Positions 2,876-35,281 of a stretch of 40,984 bases of DNA are shown here, in pieces. Under the pieces are notes generated by a model. It had not been told where the DNA came from and did not search any database. It saw only the letters and a list, made by a program, of their open reading frames with translations. Each line of letters starts with the position of its first letter. Within the stretch, counting starts at the first letter, position 1. Made by a program: the position numbers and the translations under genes. Source of the stretch: a virus; IMG/VR virus record IMGVR_UViG_3300031758_000174, positions 1 through 40,984 of that record. One strand, 5' to 3'.

Positions 2876-3324
2876 TGACAATATGCGAAACCCCAGACTT
2901 CATGTTTCCAATGCAAGCATCTTTGTATCATCCAATAGTTGAGCAAGGTGACTTTGGTGCAATAAAAAAGCAATGGGTTTTAGATAGGGTTATTGCATGT
3001 AACTTTAGTTCTGGTGGAACTGCTTTTAAAGAAGAAGTTAAGCCAAATGTTAATATAACCCAACATTCAATTTTAATTGGAAGAGTAAAATCAGACATAA
3101 GGATGTCATCCAGAGATGCTAAAAATTCTTTAACAAACATACTAATAACAGATATTAAAGATCAAGAGGGCAACCTGATCTACTTAGAAACATCTGGGCC
3201 GAGATCTGGCAAAGGAACACTGTTTGAGATAGCAACATATGAACCATTTGTTGGACCATTCGGAACAGTTGAATCTTACAAGTTAGTTATAAGAAGATCA
3301 GAAAATCAAACAGGTGATGTATGA
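2875..3324 (+). CDS. Head closure / stopper-like neck protein
   Basis: This 149-residue protein overlaps the previous stop by one base (TAATG). It is predicted to be mostly beta, with no signal peptide or membrane segment. Phages of this layout usually encode adaptor, stopper, tail-completion and tail-terminator proteins in that order, and this is the second of the four. The sequence (for example FSSGGTAFKEEVKPNVNITQ) carries no motif I can match with certainty, so the role is inferred from position, size and beta content. Confidence 0.4.
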   Translation: MTICETPDFMFPMQASLYHPIVEQGDFGAIKKQWVLDRVIACNFSSGGTAFKEEVKPNVNITQHSILIGRVKSDIRMSSRDAKNSLTNILITDIKDQEGNLIYLETSGPRSGKGTLFEIATYEPFVGPFGTVESYKLVIRRSENQTGDV

Positions 3325-4659: not shown

Positions 4660-5322
4660 ATGGCATACAGCCGTGGTTCAAGTAGTAACATCATCGTGGG
4701 TGCAGCAGCACTCTTTACGCATGATGCAGGTCCAATCGGATACGACTCAGCAACTGGAAAGATTACTGACGCACAAGCGTTACTAGATCTTCCAGCAATG
4801 ACCGCATCTTCAACATCCTACAAGGAAACCTTGTCAGATTCCGTAACAGGTGACGGGTACACAAACGTAGGATACACATCGAACGGTCTGGAACTCGCAT
4901 TCCAGCCAGATTTCGGTGAAGTAGCAGTAGATCAACTTCTCGACGTTGCTCGTCTATTCAAGCAAGGTATGACAGTTAATCTAAACACATCATTCGCAGA
5001 AGCAACACTAGAAAATCTTCTAGTTGCAATTGCAGCCGATGATACAGACCTCACAACAGCATCAGGAGTTTCAACACTCAAGATGTCTGCTGGAGATATT
5101 GGTGACGTTCCACTAGAGCGTGGACTAGTAGCAGTAGGACCAGGATCTGGTTCTTCTCTAGAGCCAAAGGAAAGAATCTATGTTGCATACCGTGCACTCT
5201 CAATTGAGAATGTTACAGTATCAGCAAAGCGTGATGAGGCTTCAATGTTTGAAGTATCATTCCGTCTTCTTCCAAACGATAACGCATCATACGGTAAAAT
5301 CGTAGATCGTTCACTCGATTAA
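4660..5322 (+). CDS. Major tail tube protein
   Basis: This 220-residue protein is predicted to form the stacked hexamer rings of the tail tube. It is beta-rich with many Ser, Thr, Ala and Gly (ALLDLPAMTASSTSYKETLS, then VSAKRDEASMFEVSFRLLPN near the C-terminus), as usual for tube proteins. It has its own promoter, a good AGAGGTGAG ribosome binding site, C-ending codons and a strong terminator behind it, all expected for the most abundant tail protein. Position after the neck genes and before the chaperones and tape measure makes the call reliable. Confidence 0.85.
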   Translation: MAYSRGSSSNIIVGAAALFTHDAGPIGYDSATGKITDAQALLDLPAMTASSTSYKETLSDSVTGDGYTNVGYTSNGLELAFQPDFGEVAVDQLLDVARLFKQGMTVNLNTSFAEATLENLLVAIAADDTDLTTASGVSTLKMSAGDIGDVPLERGLVAVGPGSGSSLEPKERIYVAYRALSIENVTVSAKRDEASMFEVSFRLLPNDNASYGKIVDRSLD

Positions 5323-5339
5323 TACAACTTAATAGGACT

Positions 5340-5368
5340 AGCCCAGACCCTTGAAAGTCTGGGCTTTT
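5340..5368 (+). terminator. Rho-independent terminator after the tail tube gene
   Basis: AGCCCAGAC (5340-5348) pairs perfectly with GTCTGGGCT (5357-5365) across an eight-base loop, followed by TTT. It should isolate the abundant tube transcript from the weakly expressed gene that follows. Confidence 0.9.
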
Positions 5369-5373
5369 CCATT

Positions 5374-5382
5374 TGGTATACT
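5374..5382 (+). promoter_or_regulatory. Extended -10 promoter giving a leaderless mRNA
   Basis: TGGTATACT (TATACT at 5377-5382) ends six bases before the ATG at 5389. Transcription would therefore begin at or within a base of the start codon. No ribosome binding site is present, and the upstream side is a terminator. The promoter at 22726 has the same spacing. A second TATAAT overlaps the ATG itself and cannot serve this gene. Confidence 0.6.
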
Positions 5383-5388
5383 TGTATA

Positions 5389-6069
5389 ATGGCAACAAGC
5401 GTATATGAAAAAAAGAACTTTTCTCTTATAGATGGAACAGTCATTGAGGCTGCCCCACTTAAAATAAAATATCTAAGAGAATTTTTAACAAAATTTGAAA
5501 CAATAAAGTCTGCCAAAACAGATGATGAATCAATATCTATTCTAGTGGTTTGTGCTCTTATAACAATGAAACAATATGCACCACATATAAAAACAATTGA
5601 AGACCTTGAAGACAATTTAGATTTGCCAACAATTTATCAAGTTATAGATATTGCAGCAGGTATTAAAATTAATCAAAAATCAGAAGAGCCAGTAAAGTCT
5701 CAAGCAGTAGATAGTGGGTCTTCGTGGGAGACATTAGACTTGGCAAAACTAGAAGCAGAGGCTTTTCTTATCGGTATTTGGAAAGACTATGAAGAACTTG
5801 AAGAATCTTTATCAATGCCAGAATTGACAGCAACTATTAAAGTTAAAAGAGACTTAGACTATAGCGATAAAAAGTTTGCTGCTGCAATGCAAGGTGTTGA
5901 TTTAGATAAAAATTCAGGCAACAGCAATGCTTGGGAAGACATGAAGGCTAGAGTGTTTAGTAAAGGCAAGGCAGAAAATGGAAATGATATTCTTGCCCTG
6001 CAGGGTAAAAACGCAGAACGGGCTGGATTTGGTATTGGCATGGGTCTTGATTATGAGGTTTACGAATAG
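5389..6069 (+). CDS. Long tail assembly chaperone (gpGT-like), leaderless
   Basis: This 226-residue protein probably binds the tape measure protein and tube subunits during tail assembly. Residues 1-95 are clearly paralogous to the next gene (6126-6449): both have LIDGT, PLKI, a KFE helix and (D/N)LPT(I/V)Y at matching positions. Residues about 96-226 are an acidic, helical extension (LAKLEAEAFLIGIWKDYEEL) absent from the short paralogue. Phages usually produce this long form by a -1 or +1 ribosomal frameshift from the short gene; here it is one uninterrupted frame. Codons are AT-rich and no ribosome binding site exists; the start is supported by the leaderless promoter, as the next in-frame ATG is far inside the domain. 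Confidence 0.7.
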   Translation: MATSVYEKKNFSLIDGTVIEAAPLKIKYLREFLTKFETIKSAKTDDESISILVVCALITMKQYAPHIKTIEDLEDNLDLPTIYQVIDIAAGIKINQKSEEPVKSQAVDSGSSWETLDLAKLEAEAFLIGIWKDYEELEESLSMPELTATIKVKRDLDYSDKKFAAAMQGVDLDKNSGNSNAWEDMKARVFSKGKAENGNDILALQGKNAERAGFGIGMGLDYEVYE

Positions 6070-6089
6070 TCAAAAATAACACTCCGCTA

Positions 6090-6098
6090 TGGTATAAT
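6090..6098 (+). promoter_or_regulatory. Extended -10 promoter for the short chaperone and tape measure genes
   Basis: TGGTATAAT (TATAAT at 6093-6098) has no recognisable -35 box. Its leader of about 20 bases includes a strong ATAAGGAGG site (6111-6120) before the ATG at 6126. Confidence 0.65.
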
Positions 6099-6125
6099 TA
6101 ACTTTAACCTTATAAGGAGGAATAA

Positions 6126-6449
6126 ATGGCAACTGCCACAGAAGAAAAAACAGTAACTCTCATCGATGGAACAAAGATCAAGGTAAGACCACTAAAGATC
6201 TCGCTACTTCGTCCGTTTATGAAGAAGTTTGAAGATATCGCCAAGGTCGCAGAAGACAATGAAAAATCCATGACTTTGCTCATGGAGTGTGTACAAATCG
6301 CAATGCAGCAATACAAGCCAGAATTGGCGGAAGATAAGGAAGCCCTAGAAGAAAATATAGATCTTCCTACAGTATATAAGATCGTTGAAGAGGCATCTGG
6401 AATTAGACTTTCAGACGCTACACTCTTAGGCAATCTTGTAAATAATTAA
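6126..6449 (+). CDS. Short tail assembly chaperone (gpG-like)
   Basis: This 107-residue protein matches the N-terminal domain of the preceding gene product, with LIDGTKIKVRPLKISLLRPF and IDLPTVYKIVEEASGI. It is the expected short, abundant tail chaperone just before the tape measure gene. It has a strong ribosome binding site, an upstream promoter and C/G-ending codons (AAGATC, CTTCGT), in contrast to its AT-rich paralogue. I looked for a programmed frameshift near its end: the frame stops at TAA (6447-6449), only 18 bases before the next ATG, leaving no room for an extended frame. The short:long ratio could thus be set by separate promoters and translation signals. Confidence 0.75.
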   Translation: MATATEEKTVTLIDGTKIKVRPLKISLLRPFMKKFEDIAKVAEDNEKSMTLLMECVQIAMQQYKPELAEDKEALEENIDLPTVYKIVEEASGIRLSDATLLGNLVNN

Positions 6450-6467: not shown

Positions 6468-9400
6468 ATGGCTGATGTTCAATCCAATATTCATGTAAAT
6501 ATTGATACGTCAGATGCTTTAGCAAGTTTAAAACTGCTGCAGCGTCAGATATCAGCCTTCCATACACAGATGTCAAAGTCTGGCGCAGCAGCGTCAGCGG
6601 TAGCAGCAAATCAAGCACAGAACTTGATGAACAGCATAAATGCTACTGGCAAGTTCCAAGCAACCATGAGAACGGTTGCAACAAGTACAGAGTACTTTAC
6701 TAATGCGCTAGAGAAAAATAAACTAACATCCAGAGAATACTTTAGGTATACTGGAGCAGCAACCAAAACATTCGGAAGACTTTTTAAGTCTGAATTTGAA
6801 ACAATAAATAAGGTTGCACGAGAGCGTGTAAAAGATATACAGACCCAGTATATCAAGATGGGTCGTGGTGCCAATGGAGCACTTCAGGCAATTGCTGTAA
6901 GACCTCTAACGCTAGATATGAAGAATCTAGCAACACAAACACAAATAGCAGCACAGCGTCAACAACTTTTAAATCAACTACTTAAGCAAGGTTCAACTAA
7001 CCTTCTAAACTTTGGTAAGAATACTCAATGGGCTGGCCGCCAGTTAATGGTTGGTTTTACGGTTCCACTCATGCTCCTTGGGTCTACCGCTGCAAAAACC
7101 TTCATGAAACTTGAAGAGCAGGCAATTAGATTTAAGCGTGTTTATGGTGAAATGTTTACCACTCAAGAAGAAACAGATGCAATGGTCAAACAGATACAAA
7201 CGCTTGCAAAAGAATACACAAAGTATGGCGTTGCTGTTGAGAAGACAATGGAAATGGCTGCTAACGCTGCAGCAATGGGTAAGATGGGCGTAGAACTTAC
7301 TGCACAAGTTACAGAAGCGACAAGGCTTGCCGTACTTGGCGGAGTTGAACAAGAGCAAGCATTAGAAACAACAATATCTGTTACAAATGCATTTGGTGTA
7401 GCAGCAGAAGACTTGGCAAAGAAGATTGACTTCCTTAACGCAGTTGAAAACCAAACTGTTGTATCTATTGAAGATTTAACAATTGCAATTCCAAAAGCAG
7501 GACCAGTTGTTCAGCAACTTGGCGGAGATGTTGAGGACTTAGCGTTCTTCCTAACTGCCATGAAAGAAGGCGGTATCAATGCATCAGAAGGTGCCAACGC
7601 ACTTAAGTCTGGTTTAGCATCTTTAATTAACCCATCTGAAAAAGCATCAAAGATGCTTGGTGGTCTTGGTATAAATATCAAGGGTATTGTAGAAGCAAAC
7701 AAGGGAGATGTGGCAGCAACCGTAGTAGGATTTGCACAAGCATTAGATACACTGGATCCACTTAATCGTGCTCGTGCAATTGAGCAATTATTTGGAAAAT
7801 TCCAGTTTTCAAGACTCTCAACACTGTTTCAAAATGTAACCGCACAAGGATCTCAGGCAGCCAGAGTCCTTGGTTTGACAAGAGCAACAACAGAAGAGTT
7901 AGCAATATTGTCACAACGAGAATTAGATAAAATAGAAGATACCACAACATATAAATTTAAAAAAGCAATTGAGGATTTAAAGGTAACTCTTGCTCCAGTG
8001 GGAGAGCAGTTCTTAAAGGCTCTTACCCCAATTGTTGAATTTGCGTCTAAAATTTTAGATAAATTTAATAACTTGGGAGAGGGAAGCAAAAAGTTTTTAA
8101 CTATTCTCACTGTGGCGCTAGGAGCGGTTGGACCTATTGCTCTTATGACCTTCGGCTTGCTTGCTAATGGTCTTGCAAACATAATTAAATTGTTTGCAAC
8201 AATGAAAACTTCGTTTAATCGTGCTGGATCATCAACGCAAATACTTGGTAATCAAACAGATTATTTAACTCAGCAACAACTTGAGGCATCTGCAGTAGCA
8301 GCATCATTAGATCAAGTTCATCAAAAACTTAGACAAACTTTTACTTCTGAGACTTCAGCAGTTAATGCCCTTGCAGCGGCATATCAAAGAGCAATTGCCT
8401 CACAACTAGGATTCACTGGTCCAGTTGGCAGAGGTGGAAAAGGCGGTGGTATTCCGCAAAGCAGAAGATATTCAACAGGTGTTGACAGAGTTCCAGGACC
8501 GATGGGAGCAGGCGACATTGTTCCAGCATTACTTTCTCCTGGCGAAGCAGTTATTCCTGCACAAGCAGCGCAAGATCCAGCAAATAGACCAGTAATTACT
8601 TCTTTGATCAATGATGGAACGGCTGTTCCTAAAACTAAAAAGAAAAGAACTAAACCAGATACAGTTTTTGCACATGCAACCAAACCACAGCAAATGCAAA
8701 CAAGAAATATTTCTGATCAGTTTGGAGATATACGAACCAATCTTGGAGCAAGAGGAATTGAAAGAGCATTAGGATATCGTGGACTTGGGTTTGATATTCC
8801 AGAAGAAGTTCACAAGAAACTTACAAACAATACTTTAGATGTAAGAGAATACGAGGCAGAAATAAGAAAGGCTCGTGCTGTAGAAACAATGACTTCTCAG
8901 TTAATGAAGCCACCTTCTAATTTAACCGCAGACGAGGCTTCAAGAGTAACAAACAAGATTCGTAAAAACTTAATATTATCTTTGCAAAACCTTCCAGATG
9001 GAACAAAAATAGGTGACAGAGTAATATACTCACGAATGGGTAATCTTAAAACAGGAGTAATGGGGGGTCTTGCAAGAGACCCAAGAATTGCACCAGCAAT
9101 TGAAAAGATATTCTCTGTTGCTGGCATCGGCGCTGCATCTGCTTCAACTATAAAGTATGACGCAAAGAAAATGGCTGTTGAAGATCTTATCAAAAATATA
9201 AGAACTTATGCTCCAAACACTAACCCATCTGTTGTTTCTGCAATAGAGGATCTTGCTAAAAAAGCCCCAGGAATAATGCTTGATGTTAAGCGAGATGGTG
9301 ACAAGGTTGTTGCATACGAAAGACCAGAAGTTAGTGGAAAGAAGAAGTCTAAAAATCCAAATGACTGGACATTAACAGATAAAAGAAATAATGGTTCTTT

Positions 9401-12400
9401 AGTACAGGATAAAAACGGAAACTGGGTATTTAAAACTGGAAGATCTGGTGGAGACACTGGTGCAGTAAAGATTGGCGGTACTGCAGGGAAAAAACTTCTT
9501 GAAAAAGCAAGAGCAGCACTACAAGGCTTAACCGCAGAAGACATTGATGGCAGACCAATTACCACATATGGCAAGCAACTTGAAAAGGGTACTGGATACA
9601 GCAATGTTGCTGCTCGTGATGCCTCTGGAGTGTTCCTAACAGAAGACGGCAAAAAAGTTTATGTAAAGCCAATGCCTGATTTGCGAGCAGCGCTTGCAGA
9701 GCAAAGAGCAACAATAATAGCAAGAGATGTTCATGGGCTTGAGGCTCCAAAGCAAGAACTTAGAGTTATTAAGGATCCATACACTGGAAAAACAATGTTT
9801 GCTCTTGAGTCTGCCTATGATCCAAAGTTTACTCCAAAAGAATTGTCAGGCAATTTTAGCAGGGAACAATATTTTAGACAACTAGTTGCAGCAAATCTTC
9901 GTGGTGATGACGACCTAAAGAAAGGAAACTTAGGCGGAAATAGGTTGGTAGATGTTGGCAAGGCTGGTGTACTAGATAGAGCATCTGGAGCAAGAGGTTA
10001 TGCAGAAAGAATGCCGTCAATGCTTGAAATGGCAGAAAAGAATTTAAGCGGAGTTAAGGGTCCAGCAGCAGGTAAATCGCCATTTTGGTTTGGAAATGCA
10101 ACGGCAGACATTGCAAAGAATATGACTCCTGATGAATACCACAAAGCAATGATTGCTGAAATTGATAGAACATTGCCAAAACTAAAAGAAACAATAGCAA
10201 AATTTAATCTTGGACCAGAAGATCAAAAATACTATCAGGCAATGATAGACAGGCTTGAAGAAGGCAAAAAGGTTAACTGGAGACTCGTACACGCAAAGCA
10301 TAATGCTATTCTAGTAAAGCCAGATGAATTAGTTGAAGATGAAGATGGAAAAACAGAAAAGCCAAAAACAAGAAGAAAAACTAGAGGCGTTAAGTCAGGT
10401 AGTCCAAAAGATACAAGAGAAATGAATAAGCCCAAAAAGGGCAAGAGAATCGTCCAAGGTCCTAGAGGTGTAAGGGTTCCTGGTTTTGCAGATGCTCCAG
10501 AATCAAGCAGCGCAATAGGTTCATCAATAGTTGCTGGAGCAAGATCTTCTATAGCAGAGGCTAAGTCAACAGGACAAAAGATTGGTCTAACTATTTCACA
10601 GTCTGCTGCAGCAGCGTCTAGAACTGCTCTATACGGAACAGGACCAGTAGACGCTAATCAAAAATCTATGCGTCGTAAATTAGAAAAATTAGAAAGAGAT
10701 AACAAGAGACTGAGTAAGATAGCAGCACAGGCTCCAGTTCCTCAGCCAGTGGTTGCTGCAAACATGGCACAAGATGGACAAAGAATGACACCATCTGGAA
10801 AACTTAAGTCCTATATTCAAAAGCGAGAAGACAAGAGGGCTGCAAGGGTGGCAGCAGGTAAAGGGCCAGGAATGGGCGTTGGTGGCGCAGCAATGGCTGC
10901 TTCTGGTATTGCAATGCTGGGATCAATGGCTCCAGGAAAAGTTGGAGAGATATCTCAAAAAATAATGATGCCTTTGATGGGCTTGTCTATGATTCTGCCC
11001 ATGCTAAAGAGTCCAGTTATGGCAGTGGTTGCAGGACTAACAGCAACAGTTGGTGCATTTATTGCATTGAGAATGGCATTTAATAATGCTCAAGAAAAGG
11101 TCTTACAAGAAGCAGAAAAGTTTAGAGGATCGTCTTCTGCTATTCAGAGTATAGCAAAGTTTGGCGGTAAGGTAACTGCATCAGAGCAGATGGACTTAAG
11201 AAGAAAAAATTCATTCTCAATGCTTGGACCAGCAACAGGAAAGACAACATATGGAGAAGCATTTGTGCAAACAAAAGAGGGCAAGGCTCTAACTGAAAAT
11301 TTAGCAAAACAGAATGCTGCAGGCAAGGGGGGGCAGGCAGTTTCTGATTTAACTAGCCAACTTTCAACTGCAGTAATGTCTGGAGCAATGGATATTAATC
11401 AAGCAAAGAGTCTTGCAATGAATGCTGCTAAAGAAGCGGGCGATGTGTCTATAGGTCTCAAGGTTATTGCACAGATGGAAAAGGTCCTTGGACCAAACGG
11501 AGAAGATTTAGATAAAAATCCTCTTGAGGTTAGAACAAGAATGATTGCCGAAAATCAAAAGAGAATGCAGTCAAACATGTCAAATATTGAAAATGCTGGC
11601 ATGATTAATAAACTTGCTGGACAAAAGACTATGCAAAAGGTTGGCATAGGTGCAACCGCTGCTGGTGGTGCAGCATTAGGAGCACTTACAGGAATGAAGA
11701 TTGGAACTCTTCTTGGTACAGTTGTCCCTGGTGTTGGAAATGTTGTTGGTGCAATTGTTGGTGGAGGAATTGGAGCAGCAGCAGGAGCAATCGGCGGATA
11801 TTTTGCCTCAAAGAAATTTACTCAACAATCTGCACAACTTGGAGCGGCATATGCAGTAGATGCTAAAATTGCAATGGAGCAAAATAAGCAAATGCTAGAT
11901 TCATTTGATCTATACTATCAAAAGAAAATTGAAGAACTTAGACTTCAAGGCAAAATTAATGAAGCAAATGATATGCAAAATAGGTATATCGAAGAAAGAG
12001 ATAAACTAACGGCAACACAGGCAGCCTTGCAAGAAGATATAGTTAAACAATACAATAGTGCTGGCGGTATGCAAGAGTCAATGATGAGTGGTATGAAAAA
12101 GGCTGCCAAAGCCAGATACAAAGATAATCCAAATGAGATTGCCTACATGGACGTTGTTGGTGCACAGGCTGGAGAACTTCGTAAGTCTGGTGCCATTGAT
12201 AAAGGTCAAGAATTTTTGATTCAAGCAAAAATGGCAAGTGGTGACATTCCTCCATCAGTCTTTAGACAACTTCTTCAGATGGCAACAGATAATAAAGACA
12301 TTGCTCCAAAAATGATGAATATTATTACAAAGTTTAGTGGCGCAACTTCAGAATCAATCGGTGTTGCTGCTCAAAATATTCTTAATGCTAAAGGTGATAT

Positions 12401-15400
12401 TGACAAAACTGTTCAAGCAAAATTTATTACTAAGGTTTCAGCATTTGAAGAAGATTCAGATGCTTTAGATTTTGCTAAGAATATGATTAAGTTAAATAAT
12501 TTAAATGCGGTTATTCCGTCAAATGTCTTAGTAAAATACTATACTGAAAATGACGAGGCATATCAAAAATTAAATACTATGCTTGACGCTATTGAAGGCA
12601 AAAAAGATTTAACAGCAACAATGGTGTATGAAATTATTCCAGAAGTTAAGGGAACAAATGCATTTAATGAAGATTACTTTAATACTTTAACAGAAGACCA
12701 GCAAAAGGTGTATACAACAACAATTGCTTCAGTTATTAATGTTCCAGATCCACAGATTGTTGCAACTGAAGACTACCAGACATGGCTAAAAGAAAACACA
12801 GTAATTGAGGGTAAAACATACGGTGGAGCACAGTATAAGGGTTTGTCTCAGGCTGCAATGATTGCACACTATAAAGAGCAACAAGGATTTAAGGCTGTTA
12901 CAGAGGGTGCTTCTATAAGCACTAATGCTGGAGTACCTGCAAACAATAAAGGTGAAGGAAATAAACCAAAAGCATCACCATTAGACGACCTTCTTAAAAA
13001 ATTAAGAGATGTTCGTAAAAACCAAATTAAAGTTACACAAGGATTTGACGCATCATTTAAATCTTTAAATAAACTCTTTGGCGGAAAAAAGACTATTGAG
13101 GTTTTCAGCGGTATTGAAAATGATATGAGAAAACTAGGAGCAGGAGAAGACCTAATTGAACTTATAGTTGGTATGGATCCTGAAGAGTTTGAAAGACAAA
13201 AAAACAAATTATTTAAAATTAAAAATGGTGAAATTGTTGCATTAAAAGATGGTGCTAAAAGTATTGGTGATGCACTTCAGTCTATTGCGCTTGGAGATTT
13301 TGTTAGCACACAAGATAGAATGGTTAAGAATATAGGAAATCAAAGTGCTGCACTTCAAAGACTTCAGGCAGCAGGTGTTGAGGGGTCAATTGCTTTAGAG
13401 ATGGTTGCTGATGCTTCAACAGCAGCCGCTCTTGCTAATGAGAAATTATCAGACAAGCAACTTAAAAAAATTATAACGTCAGCAAAAAAAGCAACAAAAG
13501 AACAAGAAAGGCTTGCTGCTGTTACAGCCAATATCACAAAATCGAAGCAATTAAAAAATGAGGCAAAAGCATATAGCGAGTTAGTAAAAATTATGGGTCA
13601 GTTTAGTGCAGAACAAATAGAGGCAATTGTTAATAGTTCAGAGTTAATGGAGGCAATAAGAGTAGGATTTGATTCAACAAACACTAGAGAGGACTTTAAT
13701 AAGTTATTAGATCTTTTAATGAAAGATGCAAATAATAAACTTAAACTTAAACTGCTAACTATTTCTGGAATGCAAGAAATATTCGATACTGGTTTTAGTA
13801 ATGCCATGGATGCTTTTGATGTAGAAGAAACAAGACGTAGATTTGAATTTGATGATCGAATGAAGCCATTAAAAGAAGAAATTAAAAAAGCCGAAGAACT
13901 AATTGCTATAAAACAAGAGCAAATTAGAGTTCAAGAAATTGGTTTGAAAGAAATTGAAGACCAAGAAGCCAAGGTTAATGAAAAATATGACGAACGGCTA
14001 AAGGCTCTTGATGAGGTTGAAAAGGCCAATGCCTCTATATCACAACAACAAAAGAGTCAACTAACTCTTGCTGAGGCACTAACATCTGGTGACATTGCTG
14101 CTGCTGCTCGTGCTGCACAGGAAATGAGAGCACAGTCTGCAGCAGATGCTGTAACAAAGCAAAAAGATGCACTAGAAAATTCTAGAGAATATGAACTATC
14201 ACAATTAAAATCTAAAGACGGTAAAAGCAGACCTGAAATTGAAAAAGAAATTAAAAAACTAAAAGATGAAATTTATGAAATTGAACAAAAGAGTCTTGAA
14301 CCAAATAGAGAAACTTTAAGACTTAATGAACTTGCCCTGGAAGAATCAATTAAGGGAATAAAAGTATTAGAAAAAACTAAGGATGAATGGGAAAGAATTA
14401 AAAATCGAGTTGATCAGGCAAGAACTAGTGCTGCTCAATTTGTTAAGCAAATGCAAGATGCTCTTGATGTTGTTGAAAAGTTAATTGCAGCATATAAAAA
14501 TCAAAAGGTTAATACTGGAACAATAGATCCTGCAGGAGAATACGTAGATCCAAAAGGAAGAACAAATCCTTGTGGCGCAGGCTATCATTTAAATCCAGAA
14601 GGAAAATGTGTGCCAGATGCCGCTGGAGTTACAGAATGTGGTCCAGGACTAAAACTAGTAAATGGAAATTGCGTACCAGTTACTTCTGGAGTTACAGAAT
14701 GTGGTCCAGGACTAAAACTAGTAAATGGAAATTGCGTACCAGTTACTTCTGGAGTTACAGAATGTGGTCCAGGACTAAAACTAGTAAATGGAAATTGCGT
14801 ACCAGTTACTTCTGGAGTTACAGAATGTGGTCCAGGACTAAAACTAGTAAATGGAAATTGCGTACCAATTGTTAATAATAATGAAGATGGCAACAAGGAT
14901 GGGTCTGGATTAGATTACACTGGAAGACCAATTAATCAGTGGACACCTTATCTTTTGGATGCAAAAGAACAATATGATATAAGTGTTGCTTCATCTTTAA
15001 AGCCTGGAGCAACACCTAGTGATTTTGGTCACAACCTTGCTGCAAATGATATGAAAGTTTTGAATGCTCTTAGTTTGGTTGATGCACAAAATAAGTATAA
15101 TGAAGATACAAAAAAATCTTTAAAGCCTGGAGCAACACCTAGTGATTTTGGGCATAATTTGTCATCAGGATCTATGCTAATAAGTAATCTAATACCAAAA
15201 GTTATTAATGCCTCAACAATGTCAGCAAAAGAAGCAGCAGAAAAAGAGGCAGCAAAGAAAAAATATGAACAGGGATTAAAGAGTTTTGGTGGTAACAGGC
15301 AGGCATTTGAACAGTTTGGAAATTGGAAGGCCTTGGGAGGACTAATTAAAAGATTTTCTATGGGTGGTTTTGCAAAGGGTACAGACACAGTTCCAGCAAT

Positions 15401-15641
15401 GTTAACTCCAGGAGAATTTATAATGAGTAAATATGCTGTTGATGCATATGGATTAGATACAATGAGGAAAATAAATAATGGAGAATTGTCTGGCGGTTCA
15501 GTGTATAATAATACATATACCTTAACAGTAAATGCTAAGACTGATGCAAATCCAGACGAAATTGCACAGGCTGTAATGGCAACTATTAAGAGGGTTGATG
15601 ACAGAAGAATTAGGGGGGTGGCTATAGGTGGCAGAAGGTGA
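6468..15641 (+). CDS. Tape measure protein, 3057 residues, with kinase-like insert
   Basis: It spans the tail lumen and sets tail length. The start at 6468 has an AGAGGTG site seven bases upstream. Residues about 180-540 look like the TP901-type core (NTQWAGRQLMVGFTVPL; KEYTKYGVAVEKTMEMAANA). Hydrophobic spans lie near 543-580, 1468-1542 and 1723-1783 (glycine zipper). A tape-measure motif D-(I/T)-VPA-(L/M)-L-(S/T)-PGE occurs twice, at 683 and 2973. Residues about 1050-1180 resemble a kinase: YVKP with K1067, E1078 on a following helix, D1149-LKKG-N1154, then D1162-V-G. Residues about 2454-2700 are coiled coil; 2720-2803 hold four Cys-rich repeats. At roughly 1.5 angstrom per residue the tail could approach 450 nm, less if inserted domains do not count. 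Confidence 0.92.
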   Translation: MADVQSNIHVNIDTSDALASLKLLQRQISAFHTQMSKSGAAASAVAANQAQNLMNSINATGKFQATMRTVATSTEYFTNALEKNKLTSREYFRYTGAATKTFGRLFKSEFETINKVARERVKDIQTQYIKMGRGANGALQAIAVRPLTLDMKNLATQTQIAAQRQQLLNQLLKQGSTNLLNFGKNTQWAGRQLMVGFTVPLMLLGSTAAKTFMKLEEQAIRFKRVYGEMFTTQEETDAMVKQIQTLAKEYTKYGVAVEKTMEMAANAAAMGKMGVELTAQVTEATRLAVLGGVEQEQALETTISVTNAFGVAAEDLAKKIDFLNAVENQTVVSIEDLTIAIPKAGPVVQQLGGDVEDLAFFLTAMKEGGINASEGANALKSGLASLINPSEKASKMLGGLGINIKGIVEANKGDVAATVVGFAQALDTLDPLNRARAIEQLFGKFQFSRLSTLFQNVTAQGSQAARVLGLTRATTEELAILSQRELDKIEDTTTYKFKKAIEDLKVTLAPVGEQFLKALTPIVEFASKILDKFNNLGEGSKKFLTILTVALGAVGPIALMTFGLLANGLANIIKLFATMKTSFNRAGSSTQILGNQTDYLTQQQLEASAVAASLDQVHQKLRQTFTSETSAVNALAAAYQRAIASQLGFTGPVGRGGKGGGIPQSRRYSTGVDRVPGPMGAGDIVPALLSPGEAVIPAQAAQDPANRPVITSLINDGTAVPKTKKKRTKPDTVFAHATKPQQMQTRNISDQFGDIRTNLGARGIERALGYRGLGFDIPEEVHKKLTNNTLDVREYEAEIRKARAVETMTSQLMKPPSNLTADEASRVTNKIRKNLILSLQNLPDGTKIGDRVIYSRMGNLKTGVMGGLARDPRIAPAIEKIFSVAGIGAASASTIKYDAKKMAVEDLIKNIRTYAPNTNPSVVSAIEDLAKKAPGIMLDVKRDGDKVVAYERPEVSGKKKSKNPNDWTLTDKRNNGSLVQDKNGNWVFKTGRSGGDTGAVKIGGTAGKKLLEKARAALQGLTAEDIDGRPITTYGKQLEKGTGYSNVAARDASGVFLTEDGKKVYVKPMPDLRAALAEQRATIIARDVHGLEAPKQELRVIKDPYTGKTMFALESAYDPKFTPKELSGNFSREQYFRQLVAANLRGDDDLKKGNLGGNRLVDVGKAGVLDRASGARGYAERMPSMLEMAEKNLSGVKGPAAGKSPFWFGNATADIAKNMTPDEYHKAMIAEIDRTLPKLKETIAKFNLGPEDQKYYQAMIDRLEEGKKVNWRLVHAKHNAILVKPDELVEDEDGKTEKPKTRRKTRGVKSGSPKDTREMNKPKKGKRIVQGPRGVRVPGFADAPESSSAIGSSIVAGARSSIAEAKSTGQKIGLTISQSAAAASRTALYGTGPVDANQKSMRRKLEKLERDNKRLSKIAAQAPVPQPVVAANMAQDGQRMTPSGKLKSYIQKREDKRAARVAAGKGPGMGVGGAAMAASGIAMLGSMAPGKVGEISQKIMMPLMGLSMILPMLKSPVMAVVAGLTATVGAFIALRMAFNNAQEKVLQEAEKFRGSSSAIQSIAKFGGKVTASEQMDLRRKNSFSMLGPATGKTTYGEAFVQTKEGKALTENLAKQNAAGKGGQAVSDLTSQLSTAVMSGAMDINQAKSLAMNAAKEAGDVSIGLKVIAQMEKVLGPNGEDLDKNPLEVRTRMIAENQKRMQSNMSNIENAGMINKLAGQKTMQKVGIGATAAGGAALGALTGMKIGTLLGTVVPGVGNVVGAIVGGGIGAAAGAIGGYFASKKFTQQSAQLGAAYAVDAKIAMEQNKQMLDSFDLYYQKKIEELRLQGKINEANDMQNRYIEERDKLTATQAALQEDIVKQYNSAGGMQESMMSGMKKAAKARYKDNPNEIAYMDVVGAQAGELRKSGAIDKGQEFLIQAKMASGDIPPSVFRQLLQMATDNKDIAPKMMNIITKFSGATSESIGVAAQNILNAKGDIDKTVQAKFITKVSAFEEDSDALDFAKNMIKLNNLNAVIPSNVLVKYYTENDEAYQKLNTMLDAIEGKKDLTATMVYEIIPEVKGTNAFNEDYFNTLTEDQQKVYTTTIASVINVPDPQIVATEDYQTWLKENTVIEGKTYGGAQYKGLSQAAMIAHYKEQQGFKAVTEGASISTNAGVPANNKGEGNKPKASPLDDLLKKLRDVRKNQIKVTQGFDASFKSLNKLFGGKKTIEVFSGIENDMRKLGAGEDLIELIVGMDPEEFERQKNKLFKIKNGEIVALKDGAKSIGDALQSIALGDFVSTQDRMVKNIGNQSAALQRLQAAGVEGSIALEMVADASTAAALANEKLSDKQLKKIITSAKKATKEQERLAAVTANITKSKQLKNEAKAYSELVKIMGQFSAEQIEAIVNSSELMEAIRVGFDSTNTREDFNKLLDLLMKDANNKLKLKLLTISGMQEIFDTGFSNAMDAFDVEETRRRFEFDDRMKPLKEEIKKAEELIAIKQEQIRVQEIGLKEIEDQEAKVNEKYDERLKALDEVEKANASISQQQKSQLTLAEALTSGDIAAAARAAQEMRAQSAADAVTKQKDALENSREYELSQLKSKDGKSRPEIEKEIKKLKDEIYEIEQKSLEPNRETLRLNELALEESIKGIKVLEKTKDEWERIKNRVDQARTSAAQFVKQMQDALDVVEKLIAAYKNQKVNTGTIDPAGEYVDPKGRTNPCGAGYHLNPEGKCVPDAAGVTECGPGLKLVNGNCVPVTSGVTECGPGLKLVNGNCVPVTSGVTECGPGLKLVNGNCVPVTSGVTECGPGLKLVNGNCVPIVNNNEDGNKDGSGLDYTGRPINQWTPYLLDAKEQYDISVASSLKPGATPSDFGHNLAANDMKVLNALSLVDAQNKYNEDTKKSLKPGATPSDFGHNLSSGSMLISNLIPKVINASTMSAKEAAEKEAAKKKYEQGLKSFGGNRQAFEQFGNWKALGGLIKRFSMGGFAKGTDTVPAMLTPGEFIMSKYAVDAYGLDTMRKINNGELSGGSVYNNTYTLTVNAKTDANPDEIAQAVMATIKRVDDRRIRGVAIGGRR
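14625..14867 (+). repeat. Four 63-bp tandem repeats (Cys-rich) in the tape measure gene
   Basis: Units begin at 14625, 14688, 14751 and 14814 and are identical by eye until the last diverges at 14868. Each encodes 21 residues with the pattern TECGPGLKLVNGNCVP, i.e. two cysteines ten residues apart. A diverged fifth unit (CGAGYHLNPEGKCVPD) lies immediately upstream. Identity at synonymous sites indicates recent duplication. Confidence 0.95.
14994..15161 (+). repeat. Pair of 45-bp direct repeats in the tape measure gene
   Basis: Copies at 14994-15038 and 15117-15161, 123 bases apart, both encode SLKPGATPSDFGHNL. They are nearly identical, diverging only in the last dozen bases (GGTCACAACCTT against GGGCATAATTTG). 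The intervening residues differ. Confidence 0.85.
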
Positions 15642-22295: not shown

Positions 22296-22733
22296 ATGAG
22301 CAAAACTCCAGATAAGGGAATAAAAAATGTTGTTATTAAAAGAGACGCTCTTGGTAAGGTAACTAGCAAAAACTCTGTAGTTTTAAGATTTAGGATAGTA
22401 TCAGAAGATAAAAATAGAAAATCTGCATATTCTCAAATATTTGTTGCTGAGTCTGGAGAGGTTTTTCTTGGTGTTGGAGATATAAATCTTCTTGGAAATA
22501 CTATTATGGTCAACTGGTCTGCTGGAGAAATATCAACACAAATAGTGTATGACGTATTTGTTGGATTTGACTCTGCTACTCCAACATTTAAAATTTCCAC
22601 TGGATCATCTAATTATTCATTTTTAAAAACTGGAACAACATCTGTTCGTGTAGTAGTTCAGGCATCATCCATTAATCCAGTGTTGAATAATGATTTAAAG
22701 ATATATGATTCTGGAATAGTGAATCTGGTATAA
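22296..22733 (+). CDS. Tail-tip protein with fibronectin III-like fold
   Basis: This 145-residue protein starts three bases after the previous stop. After a basic N-terminus it has VVLRFRIVSEDKNRKSAYSQ, later IMVNWSAGEISTQIVYDVFV and TTSVRVVVQASS, a strand pattern like a fibronectin type III or immunoglobulin-like domain of the kind often found in siphovirus tails. Its stop codon TAA (22731-22733) lies inside the -10 box of the next promoter. The fold is inferred by eye. Confidence 0.5.
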   Translation: MSKTPDKGIKNVVIKRDALGKVTSKNSVVLRFRIVSEDKNRKSAYSQIFVAESGEVFLGVGDINLLGNTIMVNWSAGEISTQIVYDVFVGFDSATPTFKISTGSSNYSFLKTGTTSVRVVVQASSINPVLNNDLKIYDSGIVNLV

Positions 22734-22734
22734 T
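22726..22734 (+). promoter_or_regulatory. Extended -10 promoter giving a leaderless mRNA
   Basis: TGGTATAAT (TATAAT at 22729-22734) ends six bases before the ATG at 22741, so transcription should start at the initiation codon. No Shine-Dalgarno sequence is present upstream. The box overlaps the stop codon of the previous gene. Confidence 0.7.
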
Positions 22735-22740
22735 TATATT

Positions 22741-23184
22741 ATGGCAATTCTACCTTTACCCGAAAGAGGGCAGCCGTTAGACGTAACATATCTTTATCAG
22801 ATAGTTAAGGCTCTTAATGAACTTTCTACCCAGGCATCAACATCAATATATAAGTATGTTACAGTAGACACGCCAAATGCTGGTAAGCAGAGTGTCAAAA
22901 CATCAGAAGCAAGAATTATCGGTGGATATGTTCAAGTAACATCTGGATCAACTCAAACTGCAGGATCCTCACAATCATTTTCATATAGTCTACCTAGCGA
23001 ATTTAAGTTTCCTCCAGTTGTTACAGCAACACCAATCAATATTGGAAATACTGATGCTGGAAAAGATGTTACAGTTACTTTATTAAGTATTTCAACTTCA
23101 AAAATTGAAGGCACTGTAAAGTTTAATGTTGGTGGAGATACTACTGTAGGTGTTAATCTATTGATAGTAGGAATACCCAACTAA
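22741..23184 (+). CDS. Small tail-tip / fibre protein, leaderless
   Basis: This 147-residue protein begins with PLPERGQPLDVTYLYQIVKA, a short helical attachment segment, followed by a Ser/Thr-rich beta region (SGSTQTAGSSQSFSYSLPS) ending in KFNVGGDTTVGVNLLIVGIP. The pattern resembles small receptor-binding or tail-tip domains. It is the last recognisable structural gene before the regulatory and replication genes. Start choice follows from the leaderless promoter and the lack of a better in-frame start. Function is inferred from position and composition. Confidence 0.5.
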   Translation: MAILPLPERGQPLDVTYLYQIVKALNELSTQASTSIYKYVTVDTPNAGKQSVKTSEARIIGGYVQVTSGSTQTAGSSQSFSYSLPSEFKFPPVVTATPINIGNTDAGKDVTVTLLSISTSKIEGTVKFNVGGDTTVGVNLLIVGIPN

Positions 23185-33664: not shown

Positions 33665-34229
33665 ATGGGGCATAGAAGTAAAACCTCATAAAATTTGTTC
33701 TATAGATGCCAGTACGAATAGTCTTGCTTTTGCTCTTTTTGAGGGAGATGACTTAAAATCAGTAGGTAAAATTAGTTTTGAAGGCAATGATATATATCAA
33801 AAAGTGATTGATGCTAGTAAAAAGGTAAAAGCGTTTTTTGATATATATAACGGATTTGAAGCAATAGTTATAGAGCATACTGTTTTCATGAATAGCCCCA
33901 AAACCGCTGCAGACCTTGCACTTGTACAGGGGGCAATTCTAGGCGCTGCAGGACAAACTGGAACAAAGGTCATAGGCAAAGTATCTCCAATAACATGGCA
34001 AAACTATATAGGTAATAAAAAAATATCAAAAGATGAACAGTTATATATTAGGTCACAAAATCCAGGAAAATCAGAATCTTGGTACAAGACATATGAAAGA
34101 AACTTAAGAAAAGAAAGAACTATAAAGTTTATCAATACAATATACGACAGATCTATCAAAGATAACGATGTAGCAGATGCATGCGGAATTGGACACTGGG
34201 CAATTAACAATTGGAGTAAAGCATTATGA
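33651..34229 (+). CDS. RuvC-like Holliday junction resolvase
   Basis: This 192-residue protein should cut four-way junctions produced by recombination or replication before packaging. An RNase H fold with the RuvC acidic set is visible: D19 in CSIDASTNS, a glutamate in AIVIEHTVF near residue 75, and the final aspartates in DNDVADACGIG near residues 171-177. ALVQGAILGAAG corresponds to the central helix region. The length is near the typical 170-190. A PD-(D/E)XK resolvase candidate is encoded 1.4 kb upstream, so the phage may carry two enzymes for this step. Confidence 0.82.
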   Translation: MAKNKWGIEVKPHKICSIDASTNSLAFALFEGDDLKSVGKISFEGNDIYQKVIDASKKVKAFFDIYNGFEAIVIEHTVFMNSPKTAADLALVQGAILGAAGQTGTKVIGKVSPITWQNYIGNKKISKDEQLYIRSQNPGKSESWYKTYERNLRKERTIKFINTIYDRSIKDNDVADACGIGHWAINNWSKAL

Positions 34230-35281
34230 AGATACTGGTATCAATAATATCTTATAAAGAAGCAGATTTAAAAGGAACAGTTTTAGACTGTTATTCAAAA
34301 GCAAAAGATAAAAATGGTTTATTTTTTTCCATTGTAGAGGAACATTTTCCAGAATTTTATTCTGATTTAAGTTTTATACCAGAAGAGCAGATTCTGTATA
34401 GAAAATTTGATTTGTCAGAGTATCGTGGAATCCTTTGGGCTAGAGACCTTACAACAAAAAATATACCAGTTGATTTTGATTATGTGCTTTATATTTGTGG
34501 CCATACAAGATTTGAACAAGACTGGGATATAACATGCCTACAAGAATACGTAAAAGCAAAAGCAAAGTCTGAAACTGGGAAAGCCGTTTTAACTTTTTGT
34601 CCACCCGACTTTGAGTACAACGATGATTGGTCTATTAAATATAAGAATGATGTAAAGACTAACCTTTATCATCCTTCTATTACTGGATGGGATCCAATAA
34701 AGCGAGAGGTTGCAGACTTTGTTCCAGGATATTGGTTTCCAATTGGAAATGTGCCGCCAGAAGACGACGATGTTCATGAAAATTATTGGGTACACTTTAC
34801 ATGGTGCTTTGCAGAAAAATTATATATTGATGAAGTTCCATTAGATCCAGAAATGAATTTTAATGGAGAAGAGCCTTATGTGTCTTTACAGTCTTGGGGC
34901 AGGGGTTGGAGAATGTTTGCAACATCAAAAATTTTTTCATATCATCATCTTTCAAGAAAATATCCAGGAGAAAAATTAAGTAGATATGACACCGCCAGGC
35001 CTTGGGCAGATGACAAGAAAAAAGATCATTGGGAGCATTCAAGAAAAGCAATGTTAAAACTTAATTTGCTTTTTTCTGGAAGATTGACTGGAGTCTACGG
35101 AAATATTCCTTTAGAAGTTACTCAAGAGTATTGCAGAAAAAGTGGTATTCCTTTAGGAATGACAAGATACAATGCAAATTATGATAAAATTGATAGGTAT
35201 CAGCATCATGTTCTTAATAAAGATAAACCACCAGTAAAAAGAGAAGATTTAGACTGGAAAATACCAGGAGTTGACAAATAA
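34226..35281 (+). CDS. GlcNAc-transferase-like glycosyltransferase (GT60-like)
   Basis: This 351-residue protein overlaps the previous gene by four bases (ATGA). It begins with ILVSIISYKEADLKGTVLDC, as in GT-A nucleotide-sugar enzymes. EYRGILWARDL (65-75), then YVLYICGHTRFEQDWD, and later FNGEEPYVSLQSWGRGWRMF with IFSYHHLSR match the layout I know from the GlcNAc transferase family related to Dictyostelium Skp1 GlcNAc transferase. In that family the metal site reads roughly D-S-H before MRF; here it is C91-G-H93, so the first acid is missing, which may affect metal binding. Acceptor unknown: a virion protein, phage DNA or host wall glycan are possible. No signal peptide, so it acts in the cytoplasm. 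Confidence 0.75.
   Translation: MKILVSIISYKEADLKGTVLDCYSKAKDKNGLFFSIVEEHFPEFYSDLSFIPEEQILYRKFDLSEYRGILWARDLTTKNIPVDFDYVLYICGHTRFEQDWDITCLQEYVKAKAKSETGKAVLTFCPPDFEYNDDWSIKYKNDVKTNLYHPSITGWDPIKREVADFVPGYWFPIGNVPPEDDDVHENYWVHFTWCFAEKLYIDEVPLDPEMNFNGEEPYVSLQSWGRGWRMFATSKIFSYHHLSRKYPGEKLSRYDTARPWADDKKKDHWEHSRKAMLKLNLLFSGRLTGVYGNIPLEVTQEYCRKSGIPLGMTRYNANYDKIDRYQHHVLNKDKPPVKREDLDWKIPGVDK

Follow-up and report, generated by a model that had tools for sequence, protein, structure and literature searches.

The window analysed here, a stretch of 40,984 bases covering positions 1 to 40,984 of the IMG/VR virus record IMGVR_UViG_3300031758_000174, carries two neighbouring genes whose products, of 226 and 107 residues, are the putative long and short forms of a tail assembly chaperone (TAC). 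We consider it probable that this is a locus of the kind known from gpG/gpGT of phage lambda in which gene duplication has replaced the programmed -1 frameshift, the excess of the short form being provided by separate signals at the two genes. For the fuller proposal, that the lineage swapped frameshifting for duplication and sets the ratio by the mode of initiation, with the minor long form translated from a leaderless mRNA and the major short form from a Shine-Dalgarno (SD) leader, we see about an even chance. The genes and the domain concerned are the following.

5389 to 6069, plus strand: gene for the putative long chaperone (226 residues), with N-domain and C-domain in a single frame and without an SD sequence
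5776 to 6042, plus strand: C-terminal domain of the long form (residues 130-218; phrog_10474, E=1.8e-17), homologous to the -1 frame open reading frame (ORF) of relatives
6126 to 6449, plus strand: gene for the putative short chaperone (107 residues), with the N-domain only

Two proteins with a common N-domain and two layouts of the locus

Residues 1-95 of the long protein and 1-96 of the short protein are identical in 44 of 97 aligned columns (45%; BLASTP, E=4e-26). Both proteins match phrog_10504 (E=2.5e-20 for the long and E=5.1e-20 for the short one), and phrog_10474 is matched by the extra part of the long protein alone. An initial annotation, made from the sequence without database searches, had described the two as paralogues sharing an N-terminal domain with LIDGT, PLKI and DLPT-Y motifs in register, with a C-terminal extension in the long protein only and a single in-frame gene for the long form. 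All of these points are borne out by the alignment, the family assignments and the uninterrupted ORF. The short protein matched phrog_1442, the PHROG named tail assembly chaperone, only at E=0.26. That the long protein matches two separate families gave the first hint that its parts are separate reading frames in other phages.

The pair is flanked by the tail tube and tape measure genes, as expected of chaperones of the gpG/gpGT kind; a position before the tape measure gene is also that of the lambda genes. By description, lambda likewise has a short and a long form with a common N-domain.

Related loci were obtained as samples, the best 80 loci being fetched for each query, and some contigs were fetched by several scans. 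Three scans with window-type queries yielded 240 loci including repeats, of which 110 distinct two-gene regions remained after removal of duplicates. Two scans with Streptomyces-type queries plus five phage records yielded 130 loci and 93 distinct frameshift regions; another de-duplication key and a start filter reduced these to 92 in the slip-site and leader counts given below. The layout was called by running profiles of the N- and C-domain on all fetched loci. An in-frame long gene followed by a separate short gene was found in 233 of the 240 window-type loci, one having a shortened long gene and six being cut by contig ends. By contrast, 125 of the 130 more distant loci have a single gene with the C-domain in the -1 frame, the other five being cut by contig ends. 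The profiles revealed no third layout among all fetched loci. The shortened long gene (locus L006, 3483-3944) has only 153 codons and its C-domain appears in two matches, perhaps owing to an in-frame deletion or an assembly error.

The frameshift layout is also that of cultured phages. A tblastn search matched 128 phage records, 127 of Streptomyces phages and one of a Rhodococcus phage, and many of those listed are annotated as tail assembly chaperone, which is a matter of annotation only. In a spread sample of these records all 60 of the 60 listed match in two pieces at one place. No second copy of the N-domain was detected in the phage records, the short query giving 124 places in 124 records. 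The Streptomyces phages Coruscant, TunaTartare, MulchMansion and Sham (Stanwilliamsviridae) as well as KentuckyRacer also carry homologous N- and C-domains, in that order, with the tail protein gene on one side and the tape measure gene on the other; unlike the window, they have a single gene whose C-domain is in the -1 frame and no second place for the N-domain. In TunaTartare and Sham the chaperone is annotated as a joined coding sequence. The five phage records L161-L165 keep the gene order of the window and have a single N-domain gene, behind which the C-domain lies in the -1 frame; for L161 and L162 the homology of the tail tube and tape measure proteins to those of the window was measured.

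A candidate slip site accompanies the frameshift layout. CCCAAAC or CCCAAAT stands in phase before the stop of the N-frame in 74 of the 92 distinct frameshift loci, and no in-phase CCCAAAY is present in either gene of the 110 distinct two-gene regions. When the 74 loci are read through the heptamer with a -1 shift, the predicted proteins mostly have 215-225 residues. Ten of these products were aligned to the long protein of the window. Those of L257, L280, L283, L298 and L316, uncultured loci that are the nearest frameshift relatives and differ from the window in having CCCAAAY and a -1 frame instead of two genes, are colinear with it from end to end and 50-55% identical, with a junction linker several residues shorter. 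Identity is 40-42% for the other five, among which the products of Streptomyces type are missing part of the C-terminal end. Because the nearest predicted products are colinear with it, the long gene appears to specify, in a single frame, the product that relatives would obtain by frameshifting, which in them is annotated or predicted. The -1 frame layout of the relatives and the absence of in-phase CCCAAAY from the two-gene regions, together with the grouping of each paralogue in one clade (see below), lend support to the initial suggestion of a duplication in place of a frameshift. The remaining 18 of the 92 frameshift loci have an open -1 frame without CCCAAAY (L161, L163, L164, L248-L254, L328, L329, L331-L334, L340, L341), and their slip site is not obvious; L161 and L163 are Boydwoodruffvirinae phages.

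Residual frameshifting at either gene seems to us very improbable. The part of the long gene around the junction does contain TTTTTTA or TTTTTTG in 18 cases and AAAAAAA or AAAAAAG in 13 cases among the two-gene regions, but a search for in-phase XXXYYYZ in both genes found no heptamer conserved across the 110 regions, and in the window it found none in the short gene and only AAAAAAG at codon 7 in the long one. In-phase TTTAAAC or TTTAAAT occurs a few codons before the stop of the short gene in 21 of the 110 distinct regions (within L132-L231); there the -1 frame stops within about 15 codons and shows no C-domain, and the window has no TTTAAAC or TTTAAAT near the end of its short gene.

Start signals of the two genes

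The two genes differ in the signals that precede them. Those found in the window are listed here.

5340 to 5365, plus strand: terminator-like hairpin between the tail tube gene and the long gene (9 pairs, then TTTCC)
5374 to 5382, plus strand: extended -10 element TGGTATACT, 6 nt upstream of the long gene's ATG, whose A (5389) is the predicted transcript start
6090 to 6098, plus strand: extended -10 element TGGTATAAT of the short gene
6114 to 6120, plus strand: SD sequence AAGGAGG before the short gene; all 73 distinct regions of the closer set have it unchanged

Starts of the long gene were counted in 109 of the 110 distinct regions, one with a start less than 60 nt from the locus end having been dropped. 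A TATA[AC]T box ending exactly 6 nt before the start, with its first T at -12, is present in 106 of these 109 loci, and a comparable -10 box 6 nt upstream precedes only 8 of the 17,043 other ATGs in the same loci. None of the 109 has a match of at least 4 nt to AAGGAGGT at -18 to -4. One study gives TANNNT with its first T about 12 bp upstream of the start codon as a mark of leaderless genes (PMC3160421); the long gene has TANNNT at this position in the same 106 loci and lacks an SD sequence in all 109. The start of the long gene is thus probably a leaderless promoter. The statement of the initial annotation that this gene has no ribosome binding site holds for the window and for all 109 loci, although what precedes the gene is better taken for a probable leaderless promoter, and such promoters need not be weak.

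A competing explanation accepts the split into two genes but not the leaderless mRNA: the long gene would be translated without an SD sequence from read-through of the terminator, or a TATAAT at 5385-5390 would start transcripts inside the gene that serve only the short one. We hold this to be unlikely. It draws on the overlap of that TATAAT with the ATG of the long gene in the window, on the short T run (TTTCC) behind the hairpin, and on the fact that the 6-nt spacing is not above chance in the window alone, where TATAMT-N6-ATG was found twice against 1.59 expected from shuffles. Conservation speaks for the upstream box instead. In the closer set TTTG and TATACTT are invariant (72 of 72 regions), but the letters of the hairpin and the bases nearest the ATG vary, so that the overlapping box has A or G at -5, T or G at -4, T or C at -2 and A, T or C at -1. 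In addition, divergent loci keep the 6-nt spacing although the flanks change.

Several other observations weigh against the leaderless start and its use for a minor product. L233 and L235 lack the 6-nt spacing and L232 has 5 nt, among the 109 loci. A generic sigma-70 scan listed neither of the two -10 elements of the window, and no -35 box is evident; we find the signals of the long and short genes credible because they are conserved across distinct loci. Finally, leaderless genes are common in actinobacteria according to the same study (PMC3160421), and leaderless therefore need not mean weak.

Two further starts may be mentioned. L233 and L235 (start at 3250) have a TGGTAGACT box 14-15 nt upstream of the ATG of the long gene and likewise lack an SD sequence there. 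The only other TATAMT-N6-ATG match of the window belongs to a gene at 22741 (22726-22743), where TGGTATAAT ends 6 nt before the ATG, again without an SD sequence; the product of this gene has no PHROG match at E 0.001 and no Pfam match at E 0.01.

At the short gene every column of TATGGTATA is conserved in at least 71 of 73 regions, and TGGTATAMT occurs four times in the window against 0.86 expected. All 110 distinct loci have an SD sequence of 5-7 nt and a -10 box 22-33 nt before the start of the short gene; counted as an extended -10 box, the element is found at 24-33 nt. The frameshift genes resemble the short gene in this respect, with an SD sequence of 4-7 nt in all 92 loci and, in 73 of them, a -10 box 22-33 nt upstream, and L257 and L280 have the promoter and SD leader seen at the short gene of the window. 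Since the short and the frameshift genes share this type of leader, the start of the short gene looks ancestral, and the leaderless-type start of the long gene would be derived. The strong ribosome binding site initially assigned to the short gene is confirmed by the invariant AAGGAGG. Its strong promoter stands in part: the extended -10 element is there, but without an evident -35 box or a hit in the sigma-70 scan, and the corresponding element of the long gene had been overlooked.

Hairpins resembling terminators were sought within 110 nt upstream of each gene by a home-made criterion. The long gene has one in 105 of 108 distinct loci, the short gene in 0 of 110 and the frameshift gene in 53 of 92. 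As no such hairpin precedes the short gene, a transcript from the long gene's promoter would, if it runs on, also carry the short gene.

Codon usage differs as well. The proportion of G or C at third codon positions is 0.230 in the long and 0.374 in the short gene of the window, in line with the AT-rich codons first noted for the long gene. Codon adaptation was calculated with the capsid and tail tube genes of the window, assumed to be highly expressed, as reference; in each of 73 regions the short gene scores higher (mean 0.651) than the N part of the long gene (mean 0.488). The codons of the short gene had been called optimised, which holds relative to this N part. The short gene of the window is, however, only moderately adapted (index 0.592, against 0.696 for the capsid and 0.739 for the tail tube gene), a further point that counts against the proposal.

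Together these features suggest how the two forms might be made. The upstream copy, fused in frame to the C-domain, would make the long form only and the downstream copy, without the C-domain, the short form only. The short form would coat the tape measure protein, and the long form would bridge the tape measure protein to the tail tube protein. A promoter of its own, located after the terminator of the tail tube gene, would give the long gene a leaderless mRNA. Translation of the short gene would use its strong SD sequence, on the run-on transcript of the long gene's promoter as well as on transcripts from the short gene's own promoter, with codons nearer to those of the structural genes. An excess of the short form could then follow without frameshifting, provided that leaderless initiation is not unusually strong, and we infer from these signals that the initiation regions may set the short:long ratio.

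Descent and function of the paralogues

A tree of the N-domain, built from 67 rows and 105 columns and rooted at the midpoint, groups the long copies in a single clade (100/98). The short copies likewise make up a clade of their own (100/99), which adjoins the frameshift genes L257 and L295 (99/92) and L280 (97/86). In the tree of the C-domain that of the long protein has the same frameshift group as neighbour; 36% of 200 bootstrap trees separate the two-gene loci from all others by a branch, and a tree in which they are held together scores 1.5 units above the free search (approximately unbiased (AU) test, p=0.55). The N-domain of the nearest frameshift group is 52-62% identical to the short protein of the window. 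Its tail tube proteins, at 58-64% identity to that of the window, are as close as those of some two-gene relatives (58-66% for L195, L228 and L233), and the tail module therefore looks inherited in place. The simplest, though not proven, reading of these comparisons is a single local duplication followed by fast change of the N-domain of the long copy.

Not all results sit easily with this history. The long and short N-domains are not sisters, the long clade lying outside the short copies and the nearest frameshift genes on a long stem. Forcing them together costs 12.2 log-likelihood units, although such a tree is not rejected (AU p=0.152). In the tree of the tail tube protein the two-gene loci share a fork that is not resolved with three frameshift loci. 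The long copy might instead have been brought in from another lineage.

Rates of substitution were obtained for the 32 of 73 regions with matching register, keeping pairs with dS of 0.15-2 (421 pairs for the N part of the long gene, 376 for its C part and 473 for the short gene). The corresponding median dN/dS values of 0.119, 0.070 and 0.047 indicate that both genes are under purifying selection, as judged from the sequences. In the same 32 regions the synonymous divergence of the short gene is about half that of the long one (median dS 0.57 against 1.14 and 1.32). With dN/dS far below 1 in both genes and the same layout in 110 distinct regions, a chance similarity of two small helical proteins or an assembly artefact is ruled out for practical purposes; the metagenomic origin of the record is the only thing that speaks for it.

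The long paralogue might have taken on another job, such as tail tip assembly or folding of the tail tube, leaving the short protein alone as chaperone. This would agree with the long stem of its N-domain clade and its weaker conservation relative to the short protein, and with the loss of the DLPT motif from some distant long proteins. We nevertheless think it improbable. The C-domain is the more conserved part of the long protein and the counterpart of the lambda part reported to bind the tail shaft protein (PMC5009743), and the whole long protein has stayed colinear with the predicted frameshift product of its nearest relatives. A chaperone role for both forms remains our preferred interpretation.

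The initial annotation had proposed a structural comparison, which bears out the relationship only weakly. The model of the short protein (predicted local distance difference test score, pLDDT, 74) has a beta hairpin and helices. In a Foldseek search over 350,542 chains the HK97 TAC (2ob9) ranks first, but with E=1.1 and a probability of 0.38, and VIA-align of the model with the HK97 TAC gives Z 4.1, in the fifth row. A TAC fold of the short protein is only weakly supported by the model, which fits it and does not prove it. The long protein was modelled with pLDDT 67.7, its C-domain being mostly below 70. A profile search of solved structures gave two matches, both at E above 0.7 and unrelated.

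Frameshifting of tail chaperones is described as widely conserved among long-tailed phages, and in lambda the long form arises by -1 frameshifting, the reported molar ratio being 30:1 (PMC5009743); the window differs in that its long form is a separate gene encoded by one in-frame ORF. The PRFect paper states, citing Vladimirov et al. 2022, that some T4-like phages have one short gene and one long fusion gene (PMC10885494). By description, the window likewise has a separate short gene and an in-frame long fusion gene; that passage mentions neither leaderless initiation nor a frameshifting sister. Among Microbacterium phages of cluster EA, related subclusters occur with and without an evident frameshift (PMC7302621), and an in-frame long copy beside a short copy is not described in the passage concerned. 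Our literature search, mostly without subscription papers, did not turn up a leaderless chaperone gene, an in-frame pair with a sister lineage that frameshifts, or any account of the pair in this lineage. The principle of two genes hence has a T4-like precedent, and this lineage and its leaderless arrangement look new.

It is difficult to find out whether frameshifting persists for the sake of the ratio or for other reasons, such as the coupling of both forms to a single transcript. A natural comparison is offered here by related lineages whose homologous tail modules show two solutions at nucleotide resolution, and with it the question can be put to the test. If the short form is in similar excess in the two-gene lineage too, the ratio alone could explain frameshifting; otherwise the ratio would be less critical than lambda suggests. 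Should the proposal be true, the frameshifting sister and the two-gene lineage would form a natural before-and-after pair for a virus dispensing with recoding, and leaderless translation would be linked to the control of stoichiometry. For annotators, two N-domain genes in a tail module can be two forms of a chaperone and not a frameshift error.

Neighbouring genes and host

The genes on either side of the pair are as follows.

4660 to 5322, plus strand: major tail (tube) protein gene, the upstream neighbour (phrog_2175, 'protein with Ig domain', E=1.2e-30)
6468 to 15641, plus strand: tape measure protein gene (3057 residues; phrog_10030, E=4e-98; PF10145, E=3.3e-23), directly after the short gene

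The product of the tail tube gene also has a weak match to PF25681 (Phage_TTP_17), below the cut-off. Its homologue at the same place is annotated as major tail protein in four of the five Streptomyces phages and as 'protein with Ig domain' in the fifth.

A scan of genome contigs with the chaperone profile found no relative, either bacterial or in a prophage. A scan of genome contigs with the capsid protein found one contig, with 77% identity, labelled as part of an Actinomycetota metagenome-assembled genome; such co-binning gives only a hint of the host. As the cultured relatives infect actinobacteria, the hosts of the uncultured phage group with two chaperone genes are probably actinobacteria.

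Two other features of the window were observed. Near the C-terminal end of the tape measure protein, at 14570-14890, its gene contains four near-identical direct repeats of about 20 residues (CGPGLKLVNGNCVPVTSGVTE). A gene for a glycosyltransferase of the GlcNAc type (PF11397, E=1.3e-20) is located at 34226-35281.
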